Below are positions 25,030 to 32,450 of a stretch of 64,000 nucleotides of DNA, in pieces (position 1 is the first letter of the stretch; every line of letters starts with the position of its first letter). The notes under the pieces are model-generated. The model was not told the DNA's origin and made no database searches. It worked only from the letters and a program-made list of their open reading frames with translations. The translations under genes and the position numbers were made by a program. This DNA comes from Polytrichum commune. Taxonomy: Eukaryota; Streptophyta; Polytrichopsida; Polytrichales; Polytrichaceae. The stretch spans positions 30,938,001 through 31,002,000 of the forward strand of contig OX485806.1 in NCBI GenBank assembly GCA_950295325.1, written 5' to 3'.

Positions 25030-25309
25030 TTTGGCCCCGGCTTAACTATTTGAATGAGCCGGATTCTTGGTACAAAGCGGAGGTAACGAGTCGAACGAAA
25101 GAGTAGAGATCTGGTTTGACGAAATAAGTGTAAGAGTCTTTTGATTATGCGGATCAATCGGTTGTCACTTGCAGCTGATCCATGGCATGCAACATAGAAA
25201 CTGTCACGCCAGCAATGTTGTTATATGTTCCCAAAGTTTCCGAGGCTGAGGATTCCTGCGGAGAAAACTGAAGATGATTTAAACATCCCATGGTAGTGGA
25301 TCTTTCAGT

Positions 25310-25503
25310 TGTAGAAACCAGAGACAGGAGCACTGTCTCGGAACAAGTCAGTTCAAGGTGAGCTTGGAGCTCAAGGTAAATATACATGAGGTGAAAGTAA
25401 ATGCTAACCCTAGAGAGTGCCCTAATGAACAGAACCCTAAGTAAATGAATAATCTAAGGATGAATAATACAGTAAGAGGGCGATAGAGCAAGAGCGTTCA
25501 ACA
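25310..25503 (-). repeat. 3' LTR of the young Copia element
   Basis: It starts TGTAGAAACC and ends GTTCAACA on the plus strand, and the terminal TG/CA are typical of Copia LTRs. It is the same length as its partner at 31316-31509 and I found no difference between them. It lies 61 bases upstream of the antisense F-box-like frame, so it could supply promoter sequence to it. Confidence 0.95.
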
Positions 25504-25564
25504 CTCCCCCCTGCTCGTTTAGCCCGGAAAGTGCTAAGTTACACGAGGTAATTTCTCGAGAGCA

Positions 25565-26281
25565 ATGGACTTGAGATTAAGAGAGTTGACTTGGGTCCGT
25601 CTGTTGACTCTGTTGCTATGGACGGTGTTGATGATGATAAGCCGCGGTATAACCCAGATTATAGGAAGAATTGAGGGTCAAATTTTCGACACAAGTGAAC
25701 CGACACTGAGAGAGAATGGTCGGAAGAGGGAATTAAGGGGAACCCTATTGTCGCCACTTGATGACGAGTTGGTGTTGCGGCGAATTTGGCCCCTGTTACA
25801 TAAGAAGGTAAATGTGTCGCTCCTGTGGAGATTGCGGCGTGTAAACAGAGCGTGGAAGAACGAAGTTGGGAAGACCATTGAATGGGCAGCATTAGAGATG
25901 GTGAGGCTGGATTCCCCCGGGTATCTTCTTTTCCTTGCTGAGCGAGGTGAGAGACGACCTTCGATGCAGGAACGAGTTGAGGTGGAGTTGAATGCGCTAA
26001 TGGTCCTGCTGTCGGAGTGCCTGGAGAGCGTCGTCGTTCGGTCGAGGGAGTTGCAGTCAGGGACTGTCATACAGGGATCCGCCGAGGGTGATAGGAGACG
26101 GCATTGGAAGGACTGCATGTGTAGGAGAGGATGGGCTCCATATCAGGAAATGAGTTCAGACATTAGAGAGATAGAGTTCAGCCGTAGTGAAGATGAGGAG
26201 GAAGAGAGTGAAGCATATGCTTCATCCACTGACAGTTCACTGTCAGTATGTTACCCTCGCCATGTATTGCGAATTAAGTGA
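25565..26281 (+). CDS. Antisense F-box-like frame carried inside the Copia element
   Basis: An uninterrupted 238-codon frame lies opposite to pol, filling the space between the 3' LTR (ends 25503) and the pol stop. The two frames converge and overlap by 8 bases (26274-26281). Residues about 64-118 (LDDELVLRRIWPLL, then LLWRLRRVNRAWKNEVG, then EWAALEMVRLDSPGYL) resemble an F-box-like segment with its Pro/Leu-Trp-Arg pattern, as I recall from repeated plant genes. This is from memory, not from a search. The N-terminus is hydrophobic (about 8-25) and residues 199-216 are acidic and Ser-rich. Extra antisense frames in this position are known in some plant LTR elements. An F-box-like product would suggest an SCF ubiquitin-ligase link, which is speculative. 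It could be a captured host gene or a family-specific element gene. Confidence 0.6.
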   Translation: MDLRLRELTWVRLLTLLLWTVLMMISRGITQIIGRIEGQIFDTSEPTLRENGRKRELRGTLLSPLDDELVLRRIWPLLHKKVNVSLLWRLRRVNRAWKNEVGKTIEWAALEMVRLDSPGYLLFLAERGERRPSMQERVEVELNALMVLLSECLESVVVRSRELQSGTVIQGSAEGDRRRHWKDCMCRRGWAPYQEMSSDIREIEFSRSEDEEEESEAYASSTDSSLSVCYPRHVLRIK

Positions 26282-29200
26282 AAGGGGTGCAGAGGTGTAG
26301 TTTGCTTCTGCAGTTGTCGAACTTAATTCGACCAAGAGATTTAGTAAGGATGTCAGCAGGTTGCATTTGAGAAGAAATAAATTCAACTTTGATGGCATTG
26401 GATTCAACCTTCTGTCGAGTGAAATGGAAGTCAATCTCGAAGTGTTTAGATCTTTCGTGAAAAACAGGGTTATAGCTAAGCTTGATACTGCTCTGATTGT
26501 CGCAGTAGATGTGAGTAGGCTTGTCATCCAGTATTCTAAGTTCACTCAATAGTCTTCGCAGCCATACTGCTTCACAAGAACATTGTGCTAGAGCCCTGTA
26601 TTCGGATTCACAGGAAGACCTTGAAGTGCTAGATTGCTTCTTGGAGTTCCAGGAAATGGGAGAGTTGCCGAGAAAGAAAATGTAGGCCCCTACGGAGATT
26701 CTGTCATCAATGTCCTGCCCATAGTCCGCATCAGTGTATCCTTTCAGACAGTTTTCCTCCCCTTGCTGAAAAAGCAAGCCAAGGTCTGGAAAGCGGCGGA
26801 CGTAACGCAGTATATGCTTAGCAGCCTGAAGGTGAGATTCCTGGGGCTCCTGCATAAATCGGCTAACCACGCTAACTGCATGGGAGATATCAGGACGGGT
26901 CTTAGTAAGAAAAAGAAGCTTACCGACAAGCATTCTGTACAGGGTCGCATCCACAGGAGGGGTGTCGGTGTGTTTCGAAAGAAGTAGGCCTTCAGGAAGA
27001 GGTGTCGAAGAGGGGTTACAGTTCTCCATCCCGAATTGGTGTAGGATACTGAGTGCATACTCAGTTTGATGCATGCGGAGGCGAGTGGGTGTGCGCTCAA
27101 ATTGTACTCCGAGGTAGCGTTGGATGGGCCCGAGATCATTGGTGCGGAAATTTTGATGTAGATGGGCTTTGAGTTGATCAAGAAGCCGAGTGTTGCTGCC
27201 AGTAATAAGAATATCATCCACGTACACCAGAAGCGCAATAGTGTCTTGGCCAATGTGAGCGAAATATAAATTTGGGTCGGAGTGAGACTGGATTAGGTTG
27301 TAAGCGAGGAGGGCAGCATGAAGCCTGGCGTACCAAGCGCGAGGACTTTGTTTTAGGCCGTATAGGGATTTATGTAGTTTACATACAAGATGTTCGGAAC
27401 CTGATTGAATAAAGCCGGGGGGTTGAAGCATATAAACATCTTCCCTAAGAATACCATTAAGAAAGGCGGTAAGGACATCTAATTGATGAATAGGCCAATT
27501 CAAATGAACAGCAATGGCAAGGAGGGTTCTAATGGTCTCCCAGCGCACAACCGGCGCAAAAGTCTCCTGAAAATCAACTCCTGTAGTCTGTTCGAATCCC
27601 CGAGCAACGAGGCGAGCCTTGTATCGAACCTGCTCACCATTAGGTCCTGGTTTAATTTTGAAAACCCATCGTGAGGTGATGGCTTTCGTGTTGGGTGGAA
27701 GAGGTACAAGGGACCAGGTGTTGTTGCTATAAATTGAATTGATCTCATCTTGCATAGCAGACCTCCAGTGAGGGTTGAGCTGAGCCTGGTGGAAAGTGAG
27801 ATTGGTGGTGGAGTCTTCAGGGATGTCGGCAGGAGGTTGTAGTTGAAGGTGGGCTGCAAAGTCATGTAGATGTTTGGGAAATTTACGAAGCCGTTCGGAA
27901 CGACGTGAGGGAGCAATTGTAGGAGAGGTTGGGACTCTTCTGGAGAGCAGCTGGGGATTGGTAGGTGTCCGTTCGGGGAGAGTCGGAGTGGATGCCGAAG
28001 AAATGTCGACAGTAGCGCTTGGAGAGGGTGATTCAGAGGAGAGAGGAGAGGCAGGTTGTGTCGTGGGTGAGTCCTCGTGTGTGGTCCCGTTGGGTAGAGT
28101 AGAGGTTCGGTGTGCCAATGGTGTCGAAGGGAGACATGCAGGCTGTCCGGTCGTCGGAATGTCGAGTAGTGGTGGAGCAGAGGGAGGTGGTGTAGTAGTG
28201 TCAGGAAGAGTTCGGAGTTCTTCGGCTGTGGTGGGAGCAGGGACGTTGTTATCATGAAGATCGGCTGTGAGATCGGCAGACTGAGGTGTAAGGAGGGAGG
28301 TAGTTTCATCAACTAGAAGATCTCTGGAGATGAAAACTTTTCTGGTAGAAGGTCGAAAACATCTGTAAGCTTTCGCCGTGTGATCAAAGCTCAGCAGAAT
28401 GCACTGCTCTGAGCGCGGGGCGAGCTTGGAACGAGAGACTTTAGGGATATGCACAAAAGCAGGAGAACCAAAGATTCGTAGATGACGAACAGTAGGTTTC
28501 TTACCAAAAAATAGTTCCTCCGGGGTTTTGTCTGGGTGCCGTTTAGTAGAACGGAGATTAAGAATATCGGCGGCGGCTTTGACAGCTTCAGCCCATAGGT
28601 ACCCAGGAAGAGATTTGTCCAGCAGTAAACATCGTGTAATGTCAAGAAGAGAGCGATTTCGACGCTCAGCGACTCCATTCCTCTCGGGCGTGTAGGGCGG
28701 AGGGAGTTCCCTCGAAATCCCTTTAGCTGAGCAGAAATTCGAGAAAGCTCGGGATGTGTATTCGCCTCCGTTGTCGGAGCGAATAGTTTGAATCCGCTGC
28801 CCAGTGGAAGTCTCCATAAGATGTACGAAATCTTGAAATTTCGTCAGGACTTCGCTTTTGTGACTGATGAAGTATATCCACATGCGGCGAGAGAAATCGT
28901 CGATGAAAGTGACGAAATATCGGTGACCTCCAAGTGAATTTAGCCGAAAAGGTCCACAGACGTCAGAGTGGATGAGTTCGAGGATGCGAGATGCCGAGTT
29001 CCTGGTAAGTTTGGGCAACTTAGTGCGAGTGTGCTTGCCCAACTGGCAGCCACTGCAAGTGTGTCTAGAAAACTGAAGAGGAGGAAGCCCTGTGACAGCT
29101 TCAAAACGAGTCATTCTTTGAAGGCCTTTCGTATGGAAATGGCCAAGCCTTTTATGCCACAATGTGGCTTGGGAGTTGGTGCAAGCTAAATGAGCCTCAG

Positions 29201-30884
29201 CCTGTGGAGGCTTTGAAGAGCCTGGGACTGCATCAGTGCACGCATCGGGAGGCAGGTTGCTAGGAACGTCTTGACAGCCGAGTGAACTCGGCACTGCGTT
29301 AGGCAGTTGTCGAATTCCTGGAAGGTGTCTGTGCCGGTGTCCATGATCGGGGATACCTACGGCACCTGAGAGTCGATAGAGACCTTTCCCGTTCTCTCGC
29401 GGAGCAAAGATTTCGACTTTAAGGGTAGAATTGTCAATTATGAAGCAGCCATTGGATCGAAAGACTAAGGTCTTGTGTTGGTCAGTGAGAGTGCCGACAC
29501 TTACCAAGTTCTTAGTGATGCCAGGGGTGTAGAGCACAGAGAAAAGAGATTTTATTTCTCCGGAAGAAAGCTGGATGTCGGCATTTCCGACACCAGAGAC
29601 CTTATGACTGTGACCTCCTGCCGATCTAACCTGATTACCACTAGTGGGTTGTATGAAGGAGAAGGCCGAAGAGTCCCCAGAAACATGGTGGGTGGCTCCA
29701 GAGTCTAGATACCAGGATGGTGTTTGAGAGGGTGTCTCGCATAGATTAAGTTCAACCAAGCAAGCGTCAACTACCTGGTCGGCGAAGGGGAAGGATTGAG
29801 AGTTCTGGTCATCGAGGGGCTCCTCAGTCGGCTCTTCGACATGATGAACTTGGCCACCGAAGTTTCGGTCACGCTGCTGCAAGAGGCGGTTCTCGTAATC
29901 CTTCATTCGGTCGAGAATGGAACGGAGGTCACACTCACGTTCGAAGTGACCATCAAGGCCACAGAAGTTGCAGCGGTCATTGCGAGGTTTCTCGGGTCCT
30001 CGGGGACGGTACTTAGGCTGATAAGTGGACTGCGAAGGATTTTTCCGGGCGGTAGATAGGTTCTTGTGTACCTGAGAATATCTGGACGAGTGAGCTCCGG
30101 TCTCTGCTGGAGATCGTCCTGCTGATGGTCCTCCCGAATCAGAGGGTCGTCGGTGACTGTAGGCGTTCCAAGGTGCTTGATGATGCCTGGTCAGCTGCGG
30201 GCGCCGGGAGCGGTCGAAGTGTGAGAAGAAAGCCTCACTGTCTTCTCGGGTCTGGCTCTCCATCTTGATAGCGGTCTCCTCTGATATCAGCTTGGCTTCA
30301 AGCTGTTCGTAAGTGGGGAGGGATTGCCCTGCAATCTGCATCCGCTTAAAAATCTCATACTCCTTTGGCAGATTCTTTAGCGTGTAGTACACTATAATGT
30401 CCTCCGGAATATTGACATCCACTTCTTCCAAGAGATTTGCTATCTCTTTAACTTCAGTGAGATGGGCGTCCATCGAAATTGACTCAGTCTTCCGTAGAGA
30501 GAAGAATTTGTCGATGAGCATTACCCGGCGAGGGCCACTGTCAGACTCATACCTTGTCTTCAAACCGGTCCAACACTCGTAAGGGTCGTTGTAACGGCGT
30601 AGGAGCTTAAGAGCATTATTCTTCGCATTGTTGTTGATAATGCTCATCACTTGTTGCCTTGCCGTCTTTTCTTCCTCCCCCATTATCTTGCTGGGCGGTG
30701 TGAGGCAGTAATGAAAGCGGCCATCCTTTTGAAGAAGATTCTTCATTCGGTAAGCCCAAACTCCAAAATTGTTGCCTCCATCAAGATGATATGTCTCGGG
30801 AAGTCCGCTGTCCCCGGCCATGGTGGAGAGTCTTGGGTAGGTGATCTGTGGAATGCTCTCAAATTCTTCTTCTATGGTGGACAT
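26274..30884 (-). CDS. Copia gag-pol polyprotein
   Basis: A single 1536-codon frame with the Copia domain order. Gag is at about residues 30-230 and a zinc knuckle CNFCGLDGHFEREC at 305-318. An aspartic protease (LDSGATHH) lies near 393-400. Next come the pre-integrase motif LWHKRLGHFH and an integrase core with HSDVCGPF, RSDNGGEY and TPERNGVAERRNRSL. Reverse transcriptase follows (KARLVARGFEQ, YVDDILITG), then RNase H with TDADYGQDIDDR and SCESEYRAL. Gag and pol are in one frame, as is usual for plant Copia. It looks whole. Confidence 0.95.
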   Translation of the reverse strand: MSTIEEEFESIPQITYPRLSTMAGDSGLPETYHLDGGNNFGVWAYRMKNLLQKDGRFHYCLTPPSKIMGEEEKTARQQVMSIINNNAKNNALKLLRRYNDPYECWTGLKTRYESDSGPRRVMLIDKFFSLRKTESISMDAHLTEVKEIANLLEEVDVNIPEDIIVYYTLKNLPKEYEIFKRMQIAGQSLPTYEQLEAKLISEETAIKMESQTREDSEAFFSHFDRSRRPQLTRHHQAPWNAYSHRRPSDSGGPSAGRSPAETGAHSSRYSQVHKNLSTARKNPSQSTYQPKYRPRGPEKPRNDRCNFCGLDGHFERECDLRSILDRMKDYENRLLQQRDRNFGGQVHHVEEPTEEPLDDQNSQSFPFADQVVDACLVELNLCETPSQTPSWYLDSGATHHVSGDSSAFSFIQPTSGNQVRSAGGHSHKVSGVGNADIQLSSGEIKSLFSVLYTPGITKNLVSVGTLTDQHKTLVFRSNGCFIIDNSTLKVEIFAPRENGKGLYRLSGAVGIPDHGHRHRHLPGIRQLPNAVPSSLGCQDVPSNLPPDACTDAVPGSSKPPQAEAHLACTNSQATLWHKRLGHFHTKGLQRMTRFEAVTGLPPLQFSRHTCSGCQLGKHTRTKLPKLTRNSASRILELIHSDVCGPFRLNSLGGHRYFVTFIDDFSRRMWIYFISHKSEVLTKFQDFVHLMETSTGQRIQTIRSDNGGEYTSRAFSNFCSAKGISRELPPPYTPERNGVAERRNRSLLDITRCLLLDKSLPGYLWAEAVKAAADILNLRSTKRHPDKTPEELFFGKKPTVRHLRIFGSPAFVHIPKVSRSKLAPRSEQCILLSFDHTAKAYRCFRPSTRKVFISRDLLVDETTSLLTPQSADLTADLHDNNVPAPTTAEELRTLPDTTTPPPSAPPLLDIPTTGQPACLPSTPLAHRTSTLPNGTTHEDSPTTQPASPLSSESPSPSATVDISSASTPTLPERTPTNPQLLSRRVPTSPTIAPSRRSERLRKFPKHLHDFAAHLQLQPPADIPEDSTTNLTFHQAQLNPHWRSAMQDEINSIYSNNTWSLVPLPPNTKAITSRWVFKIKPGPNGEQVRYKARLVARGFEQTTGVDFQETFAPVVRWETIRTLLAIAVHLNWPIHQLDVLTAFLNGILREDVYMLQPPGFIQSGSEHLVCKLHKSLYGLKQSPRAWYARLHAALLAYNLIQSHSDPNLYFAHIGQDTIALLVYVDDILITGSNTRLLDQLKAHLHQNFRTNDLGPIQRYLGVQFERTPTRLRMHQTEYALSILHQFGMENCNPSSTPLPEGLLLSKHTDTPPVDATLYRMLVGKLLFLTKTRPDISHAVSVVSRFMQEPQESHLQAAKHILRYVRRFPDLGLLFQQGEENCLKGYTDADYGQDIDDRISVGAYIFFLGNSPISWNSKKQSSTSRSSCESEYRALAQCSCEAVWLRRLLSELRILDDKPTHIYCDNQSSIKLSYNPVFHERSKHFEIDFHFTRQKVESNAIKVEFISSQMQPADILTKSLGRIKFDNCRSKLHLCTPFT

Positions 30885-31315
30885 CTACAGTTGTCTCTCT
30901 GTTACTAACAGTTCGAGGCGCTACAGATCCGAGCACGGCAGGTAATTGACAGAAGGAGCACACACTTCTGGAAATGACTACTCTAGATTACCACAGTAGA
31001 TCTCATTCGCATAACTTTTCTGGGTCAGAACTAATCAAGCTAGTACCAGAAAAAAAAAAAAAAAAAAAAACAGCCACTGCAGAGTCGAGCAGTATTTAGC
31101 GGTTCGAAATACTAACTGTTTGAACATAGAAAGTATCTACTGTTTCTCGCTACTTTCAATTAGCTGCAGAGTGTCTTTCTACAATCTACCAGAGACTATG
31201 TAGAAGACCAGAGAAATCGAGAGCAAGCTACTGTAAGTTGCAAGAAGAGAGAGGAGCCAAGAATTCAAAAAACACGCTAAGCTGTACTAGGTCGAAGGTA
31301 ACTGCTCTGATACCA

Positions 31316-31509
31316 TGTAGAAACCAGAGACAGGAGCACTGTCTCGGAACAAGTCAGTTCAAGGTGAGCTTGGAGCTCAAGGTAAATATACATGAGGTGA
31401 AAGTAAATGCTAACCCTAGAGAGTGCCCTAATGAACAGAACCCTAAGTAAATGAATAATCTAAGGATGAATAATACAGTAAGAGGGCGATAGAGCAAGAG
31501 CGTTCAACA
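31316..31509 (-). repeat. 5' LTR of the young Copia element
   Basis: The partner of the 25310-25503 LTR. The primer-binding site for initiator Met tRNA directly follows it on the minus strand, and the second TCAGT target duplication lies at 31510-31514. Confidence 0.95.
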
Positions 31510-32450
31510 TCAGTACACCTGTGGCGACCACGAGAGAGGTATCCGTTTTCAAAGGCAGGACACCAAGCAGAGAGTGCAAGCGCAAGGGAAAATAAGTCAT
31601 CAAGGAGTAATAAGGACTTTAGTGAAACGAGTGAAACGCATTCTTCATACAAAATTAGTGAGATGATGAGTTGAACGAAAGAGTAAAGCTCTGAGGGAAT
31701 GTATCGTTTTAGGAAGTCTGGGTTGACGAGGTAATGGCAAAAGAGTTCTGAATATGCAGGTCAGTCGGTCGTCACCTACAGCTGATCCATTGCATGTATA
31801 CAACTGTGGCATCAATGTTCTATGTTCCTTGAGTTCCGAAAGCAGGGAATTTCTGGGGGGAAAATTAATGATTTATAAATGAGACTGTACAGGATTTCTG
31901 AGTTGCCACTGCGAGAACGATACACATTTCCAAAGACAGGAGACCAAGGAGAGACTGGAAGGCAAAGGAAAATGTTGTCATCAAGAAACAAAGAGGAGTT
32001 TTAATTAGCTGTATCAATGACCCGGCCGGATTTTACATACGAAGTGGAGATGATGAGTAGAACGAACGAGAAAGGGTTTGAGGAGTCAAGAGGTGTATCT
32101 TTCTAGAGAGTCTGGTTCGGCGAAGCAATTGCAAGAGTTTTTTGATTATGCAGAACAATCGGTCGTCAATTGCAGCTGATCCATAGCATCACGGCAGCTA
32201 TGTTGTTGTATGTTCCCTAAGTTTCTTAAGGCCGTGGATTCCTACGGGGCGAAGATGATTTAGACATCCGATGCATGATAGTGGATCTTTGAGTGCACCT
32301 GTAGCCACCACGAGTGAGATGTATGTACGTTTCCAAAGGAGAGCAAGGAGGAGCAAGAACAAGAGCAAGAGTGCCAGACTGCAAGAGCAAGAGTGCCACG
32401 GTGCAAGAGCGAGGAAGAAATTGTCAACAAGAAGCAATAAGGGGTTTAGA

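Follow-up and report, generated by a model that had tools for sequence, protein, structure and literature searches.

An antisense protein gene between pol and the 3′ LTR of a young Copia retrotransposon in Polytrichum commune

A young Copia element of Polytrichum commune carries a long open reading frame on the strand opposite to gag-pol, which raises the question of whether this frame is a real gene of the element and what kind of protein it encodes. The element lies in the window, that is, the whole stretch of 64,000 nucleotides analysed here (contig OX485806.1, positions 30,938,001 to 31,002,000). A first-pass annotation had proposed an F-box-like cargo or accessory gene. The element is 6.2 kb long and is delimited by the following features.

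25305..25309, no strand: target-site duplication TCAGT at the 3′ LTR, same as 31510-31514 (sequence reading)
25310..25503, minus strand: 3′ LTR, 194 bp, 100% identity to 31316-31509
25504..25511, minus strand: polypurine tract (PPT), GGGGGGAG in element sense (sequence reading)
26274..30884, minus strand: gag-pol, 1536 codons, in Copia order (ORF and domain search)
31304..31315, minus strand: primer-binding site (PBS) TGGTATCAGAGC, next to the 5′ LTR (sequence reading)
31316..31509, minus strand: 5′ LTR, 194 bp
31510..31514, no strand: target-site duplication TCAGT at the 5′ LTR (sequence reading)

The gag-pol frame contains gag, integrase and RVT_2 domains, with integrase preceding reverse transcriptase in one polyprotein. 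The LTR pair, the target-site duplication and the integrase-before-reverse-transcriptase order identify the element as a Ty1/Copia LTR retrotransposon. The two LTRs are identical over 194 of 194 bp, as they had seemed to be in the first-pass annotation, and the element is young. The PBS TGGTATCAGAGC presumably pairs with the initiator tRNA-Met at its 3′ end, and we take it to match the complete tRNA-Met 3′ end, unlike the half tRNA-Met type of Bryco/Osser elements. In the Bryco/Osser lineage of Copia, the PBS is described as complementary to half tRNA-Met (PMC6317226); the PBS of the window element, which starts with TGGTATCAGAGC, is not of this type.

Clean LTR pairs with 97-100% identity were present in ten out of eighteen longer stretches (L041-L046, L048, L051-L053). 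Among the same stretches, L055 has a looser pair (87.6%), L050 has a 188-bp pair of 97.9% amid other repeats, L047 has repeats of 71-73% alone and no clean LTR pair, and an LTR pair was absent in L039, L040, L049, L054 and L056. At L051 (C1:72220700-72229700), the pol of another Copia lineage is split near residue 1340 by an inserted family element whose LTRs are 100% identical. The window element itself is hosted by a diverged repeat array, in which a 79-bp stretch occurs three times, at 25110-25188, 31717-31795 and 32111-32189. The second and third copies have 77% and 85% identity to the first, with spacings of 394 bp and, the element subtracted, about 402 bp. In the Rfam scan of the whole window (1-64000), no family reached its gathering score.

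The antisense frame and its parts are organised as follows.

25504..25564, plus strand: LTR-to-ATG spacer of 61 bases, PPT plus leader (sequence reading)
25565..26281, plus strand: antisense accessory gene, 238 codons, P0001 (ORF, homologues, codon-model selection)
25571..25690, plus strand: residues 3-42, predicted continuous helix, hydrophobic at about residues 8-26 (structure model, hydropathy)
25745..25903, plus strand: residues 61-113, conserved Trp-rich helical core, the "F-box-like" stretch (alignment; omega 0.115 for alignment columns 61-158)

The frame is uninterrupted from ATG to stop on the strand opposite to gag-pol, and the two frames overlap tail to tail by eight bases (26274-26281). 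Both the stop-free 238-codon frame and its 8-base convergent overlap had been reported in the first-pass annotation. The same annotation described the frame as filling exactly the gap between the pol stop and the 3′ LTR, which holds on the pol side, where the overlap lies, and fails on the LTR side, where 61 bases intervene. In fifteen out of sixteen intact copies the tails of the antisense frame and pol overlap by 4-56 bases, and in L011 they are separated by a 1-base gap.

The search of the P. commune genome (one genome; 408 Mb in 64 contigs, of which C1-C7 measure 42-78 Mb) revealed 72 matches to the antisense protein at E up to 10. Twenty-one of these, including the window copy, span residues 1-236 or more, and the other twenty near-full-length loci share 47-62% amino-acid identity with the window protein. 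No inner stop was found in seventeen of the twenty-one, and L010, whose frame stays open from the ATG up to a stop of its own, is an eighteenth uninterrupted copy. The other matches are for the most part partial, with many of them broken.

For the codon test, sixteen of the twenty-one near-full-length matches were used; L014, L021 and L030 were left out as interrupted, and L027 and L029 as near-duplicates of L026 and L028. L012, which spans residues 1-189, and L034, with residues 1-235 at 37% identity and five stops, were excluded too. Over these sixteen intact, non-redundant copies omega was 0.206 (2ΔlnL 897 against omega = 1), where the omega = 1 fits used a kappa grid up to 5. By alignment columns, omega was 0.175 for columns 1-60 (with the optimum of the omega = 1 fit at the grid edge), 0.115 for columns 61-158 and 0.361 for the rest. 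Shifted frames on the same strand of the same DNA gave 1.45 and 2.25, and differences at codon positions 1, 2 and 3 were 0.37, 0.29 and 0.57. The pol tails of fourteen of the sixteen copies gave an omega of 0.059 (L011 and L020, which match in pieces, were omitted, and L018 and L019 each had one stop masked). The comparison of Ka/Ks between the frame and pol, which the first-pass annotation had suggested as a check, contradicts a value near 1 for the frame. The antisense protein is under purifying selection and evolves faster than pol. Since selection has kept the frame working across divergent copies, the frame is probably useful to the element.

The identical LTRs would also suit a frame that is open by chance in a very young element. 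This explanation is refuted by the seventeen near-full-length copies without inner stops, by pairwise differences that reach 55% of residues among the fourteen copies compared, and by the omega of 0.206; its probability is practically nil. A second explanation is that the antisense transcript and not the protein matters, by making double-stranded RNA or by interfering with genomic RNA. Such a role has been discussed for frames of this kind (PMC7264820), and the antisense position and the overlap with pol agree with it. However, the overlap is just 4-56 bases, and selection acts on the amino acids of this frame, with omega 0.206 against 1.45 and 2.25 in the two shifted frames of the same strand. 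Because the codon evidence shows protein-level selection, RNA as the only role is disfavoured, and we rate it as very unlikely.

Pol abuts the antisense frame on the opposite strand in 28 out of 30 loci read among the 72 matches, the exceptions being L034, which is rearranged, and L036, without abutting pol. Conversely, among the matches listed, the frame was at the expected place in 28 out of 32 pol places with pol-tail identity of at least 70%, a count that rests on 140 scored of 1205 pol candidates. In three of the four frame-less places the pol match already ends at residue 165-184 of 276, and the fourth (C3:13722402) has a full-length pol-tail match with no frame match beside it. Beside distant pols (below 50% identity) no frame match was found in the 15 sampled out of 108 entries, a search in which a strongly diverged frame would be missed. 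The first-pass annotation had named absence of the frame, or random stops in it, among related elements as evidence against a gene. This is mostly contradicted, as 28 of 32 related places have the frame and seventeen of twenty-one copies are stop-free; the rest, and many of the fragments, are broken.

Among the fourteen copies compared, the mean amino-acid difference was 0.47 for the antisense protein and 0.19 for pol, and the two sets of distances correlate (r 0.33; equalled in 39 of 9999 permutations), from which it follows that the frame has been passed on together with the element and diverges more quickly than pol does. The two trees share the close groups L009 and L010, L019 and L023, L022 and L024, and L013 and L026, and disagree elsewhere, for example in the placement of L025. 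Eleven out of sixteen intact frames adjoin a pol frame of fewer than 1400 codons, and the smaller target of the antisense frame may explain such intact frames beside a short pol. The frame is a genuine protein-coding gene that is transmitted along with the element. The real accessory gene in a young Copia element, as first annotated, is thus borne out by twenty homologous loci, by the related pol places and by omega.

Capture of a host gene, which the element would now carry as cargo, would be in keeping with the pol-LTR interval as a known place for extra genes. In the thirty loci read, a set to which the weak matches (E 0.01-1.3) do not belong, there was no clear host copy, and pol abuts in 28 of them. 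Moreover, the frame is inherited with the lineage and is not confined to one or a few copies, and host-gene capture is accordingly rated as unlikely, at about one chance in ten.

About 640 bases outside a family element, at L046:7505-7744 (C3:12029504), lies a broken and divergent relic of the antisense protein, with 27-43% identity to the family members matched. This relic hints at an older protein family, but its decay may have produced some of the divergence. In addition, weak matches to residues 78-146 (E 0.1-1.3) fall in recurrent frames whose lengths are the same or nearly so, listed below; they perhaps represent a further, distant repeat family that shares a related core, or are chance matches.

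C5:44106968, C4:43703545 and C2:31753933: weak-match frames of 199 codons
C3:40823627 and C4:38749885: weak-match frames of 236 codons
C4:57070915 and C5:45063354: weak-match frames of 241 and 243 codons

Grande of maize and RIRE2 of rice are Gypsy elements. Antisense extra frames between pol and the 3′ LTR (aORF-3R or eORF-3′R) are described for Grande (gene23), RIRE2, Retand and PvRetro13 (PMC7264820, PMC11963269). Similar to these, the frame of the window element lies between pol and the 3′ LTR, opposite to gag-pol, and it accompanies 28 of the 32 related pols in the matches listed; position, opposite orientation and presence in most family copies are common to all five. The 250-codon cut-off of PMC6317226, which is a detection cut-off and not a biological one, is not reached in the window (238 codons) and is reached by five out of sixteen intact copies. 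Retand of Silene is described as a Gypsy element with a pol-LTR region of 2.9-6.6 kb containing Transposase_28 (PF04195) (PMC11963269). In contrast to Retand, Grande and RIRE2, the window element is a compact 6.2-kb Copia, in which the frame occupies nearly the whole pol-LTR space. A further difference is that the frame of the window element overlaps pol, possesses a hydrophobic N-terminal helix and lacks a Pfam domain.

SIRE elements also harbour an extra frame downstream of pol in a Copia element, named eORF-3′F (PMC6317226). According to the same source, the SIRE frames run in the sense direction and form 19 groups that resemble each other little or not at all, whereas the lineage of the window element has one homologous antisense protein throughout. 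The window frame, being antisense to gag-pol, is not an env-like sense frame. Copia eORF proteins have been sorted into 45 groups (PMC6317226), and a relative of the window protein may be among them. On the literature searched, an antisense protein that is conserved throughout a lineage of compact Copia elements is new within the eORF-3′R kind.

The protein begins with the predicted helix of residues 3-42, modelled as a block with pLDDT of 89-98. The N-terminal hydrophobic stretch has a Kyte-Doolittle value of 1.79 in the window copy, and its peak lies between 1.58 and 2.05 in all sixteen intact copies, which makes the helix a possible membrane anchor. Because the hydrophobic stretch is short, contains an arginine at residue 12 (in fourteen of the sixteen copies) and has a borderline score, an amphipathic helix instead of a membrane span is also possible. 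Seventeen out of twenty-nine invariant positions in the family alignment fall in residues 61-113; the invariant residues include M1 D2 L3, W19, W75-P76, W88-R89-L90, W97 and W107. The C-terminal tail is variable, acidic and Ser-rich, with a conserved YYPRH-like motif at its end. The core model is poor, with a mean pLDDT of 76.9 for the best model and 51.6-57.9 for the other four. With these low-confidence models as queries, Foldseek found nothing at E 0.001 or better in the PDB and viral models.

LPx[DE][LVI] forms the start of F-box helix 1, and in P0-type F-boxes a proline follows LPxx[LI] after 10-13 residues. Neither the former nor the latter, polerovirus P0-type pattern was present in any of the sixteen intact copies. 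The F-box reading proposed at first pass is not supported, as no F-box model matched, no credible fold match was obtained and LPx[DE] is missing from all sixteen copies. The HMM search it had called for was run with Pfam on the window protein and on 18 whole and 24 core members, with zero F-box matches; every match that did appear was of a single member to an unrelated family (best E 0.024). PHROGs gave a single match, of E 0.2, to the core fragment, and NCBIfam gave nothing for the core fragment or the window protein. For the window protein, Pfam, PHROGs and NCBIfam were all empty, the outcome that the first-pass annotation had taken as counting against its proposal; this removes the F-box label and leaves the reality of the gene unaffected.

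Further comparisons were negative or inconclusive, and the F-box label was dropped. PF00646 had at least 126 matches across the P. commune genome (150 of 252 candidates scored), none of them at loci of the antisense frame. The profile search of PDB sequences yielded none in one run and one unrelated chain (E 1.4) in another. Aligned by hhalign to a small TIR1-like F-box profile, the family covered 24 columns with a probability of 0.2% (P 0.24), and an HMM built from five PDB F-boxes scored ten of sixteen real proteins at -4.4 to -1.1 bits, below the 95% point of shuffles (0.6). F-box was not named among the Foldseek matches listed (best 50 of 65 in one search). These tests are to be read with a TIR1-like reference set, weak structure models and HMMER filters that hide weak matches. 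The motif on which the label was based is kept in the family, with LxDE[LVIF] in fifteen and the SLLWRL..V core in all sixteen intact copies; DELVLxRIW ... SLLWRLRRVNRAW is a loose motif in successive predicted helices.

This motif leaves room for a divergent F-box-like adaptor, whose core would bind host SKP1 and redirect the SCF ubiquitin ligase, for example against silencing proteins. The motif in successive helices and the 24 aligned columns speak for it, and some viral SKP1 binders also lack the canonical motif, crinivirus p22 using LKLLI, whereas LPxxI/L is the P0-type F-box motif (PMC6784205). The loose motif is the likeness to F-box proteins, polerovirus P0 and crinivirus p22; unlike them, the window protein, known here from sequence and a poor model, has no profile match and no LPxx[LI]. 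With the profile, genome, hhalign, HMM, pattern and Foldseek results all against it, we consider such an adaptor doubtful, and retain it as a less favoured interpretation, given that a non-canonical motif has been described in a viral protein that binds SKP1 (PMC6784205). Polerovirus P0 binds SKP1 and targets AGO1, which is degraded by autophagy and not by the proteasome alone (PMC6593998). The fuller version, in which a membrane-anchored antisense F-box-like adaptor made from a two-way LTR promoter turns the host ubiquitin ligase on the silencing machinery, is less probable still; if true, it would be a retrotransposon counterpart of viral SKP1-binding silencing suppressors. No F-box-like antisense frame in a Copia element is named in the open-licence literature searched, a weak negative given its partial coverage.

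Upstream of the frame, two features were found.

25434..25440, plus strand: ACCCTAA within the LTR, reading in the same direction as the antisense gene (sequence reading; 20 of 20 copies)
25486..25516, no strand: inverted repeat at the PPT/LTR junction, arms 25486-25490 and 25512-25516 (sequence reading)

ACCCTAA, which we take to be the telo-box core, is present within the 260 bp upstream of the ATG in all twenty copies in the orientation of the frame, and reversed in none. It occurs 26 times, whereas single-base shuffles contain it 0.5 times on average and at most 4 times. As the copies are related, this shows conservation of the boxes and not their function, and they may serve the sense promoter instead. 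The ATG lies 30-91 bases past the LTR end in the twenty copies measured. This conserved placement next to the LTR fits what a putative LTR promoter would require.

The inverted repeat reads CTTGTGTGCA ... TGCCCACAAG in element sense, with an internal arm and an LTR arm, so that the PPT would sit in the loop of a hairpin. Of 26 loci tried, among which L031 lacked a match to the search pattern, 24 other copies have the repeat at the corresponding position (alignment A4), and the stem is longer in relatives. Pairing was observed in 79.9% of 264 cells (equalled in two of 500 shuffles) and two-sided changes in 12 cells (none of 500 shuffles). Against a hairpin, 18 of 24 rows break one of the inner pairs, pairing in the control slides still amounts to 24-59%, and cells with two-sided changes number 13 in the +3 slide.

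Overall, we favour, with a probability of roughly 0.62, an antisense accessory protein of the eORF-3′R class, which probably associates with a membrane and whose gene is probably transcribed from the LTR, and we do not file it as an F-box protein. Such a protein would be made from its own antisense mRNA, starting in or beside the 3′ LTR and reading towards pol; Grande's antisense gene is described as having its own promoter (PMC7264820). The conserved ACCCTAA boxes and the short distance of the ATG from the LTR end suggest that the 3′ LTR may act as a compact two-way promoter. The N-terminal hydrophobic helix would seat the protein on a membrane, with the helical Trp-rich core and the acidic Ser-rich tail facing the cytosol. 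In the weakest step of this proposal, the core would bind a host protein and thereby help the element, most probably by countering host control or by serving the traffic of particles or nuclear traffic.

The extra frames of plant LTR retrotransposons, including those of the Copia SIRE elements, have been described as so divergent that their functionality was questioned (PMC6317226). In the genome studied here, selection keeps one antisense protein through a Copia lineage, in an element with little spare room. The usefulness of proteins from antisense frames of retrotransposons is now testable, on one small gene with defined invariant residues and many natural variants.
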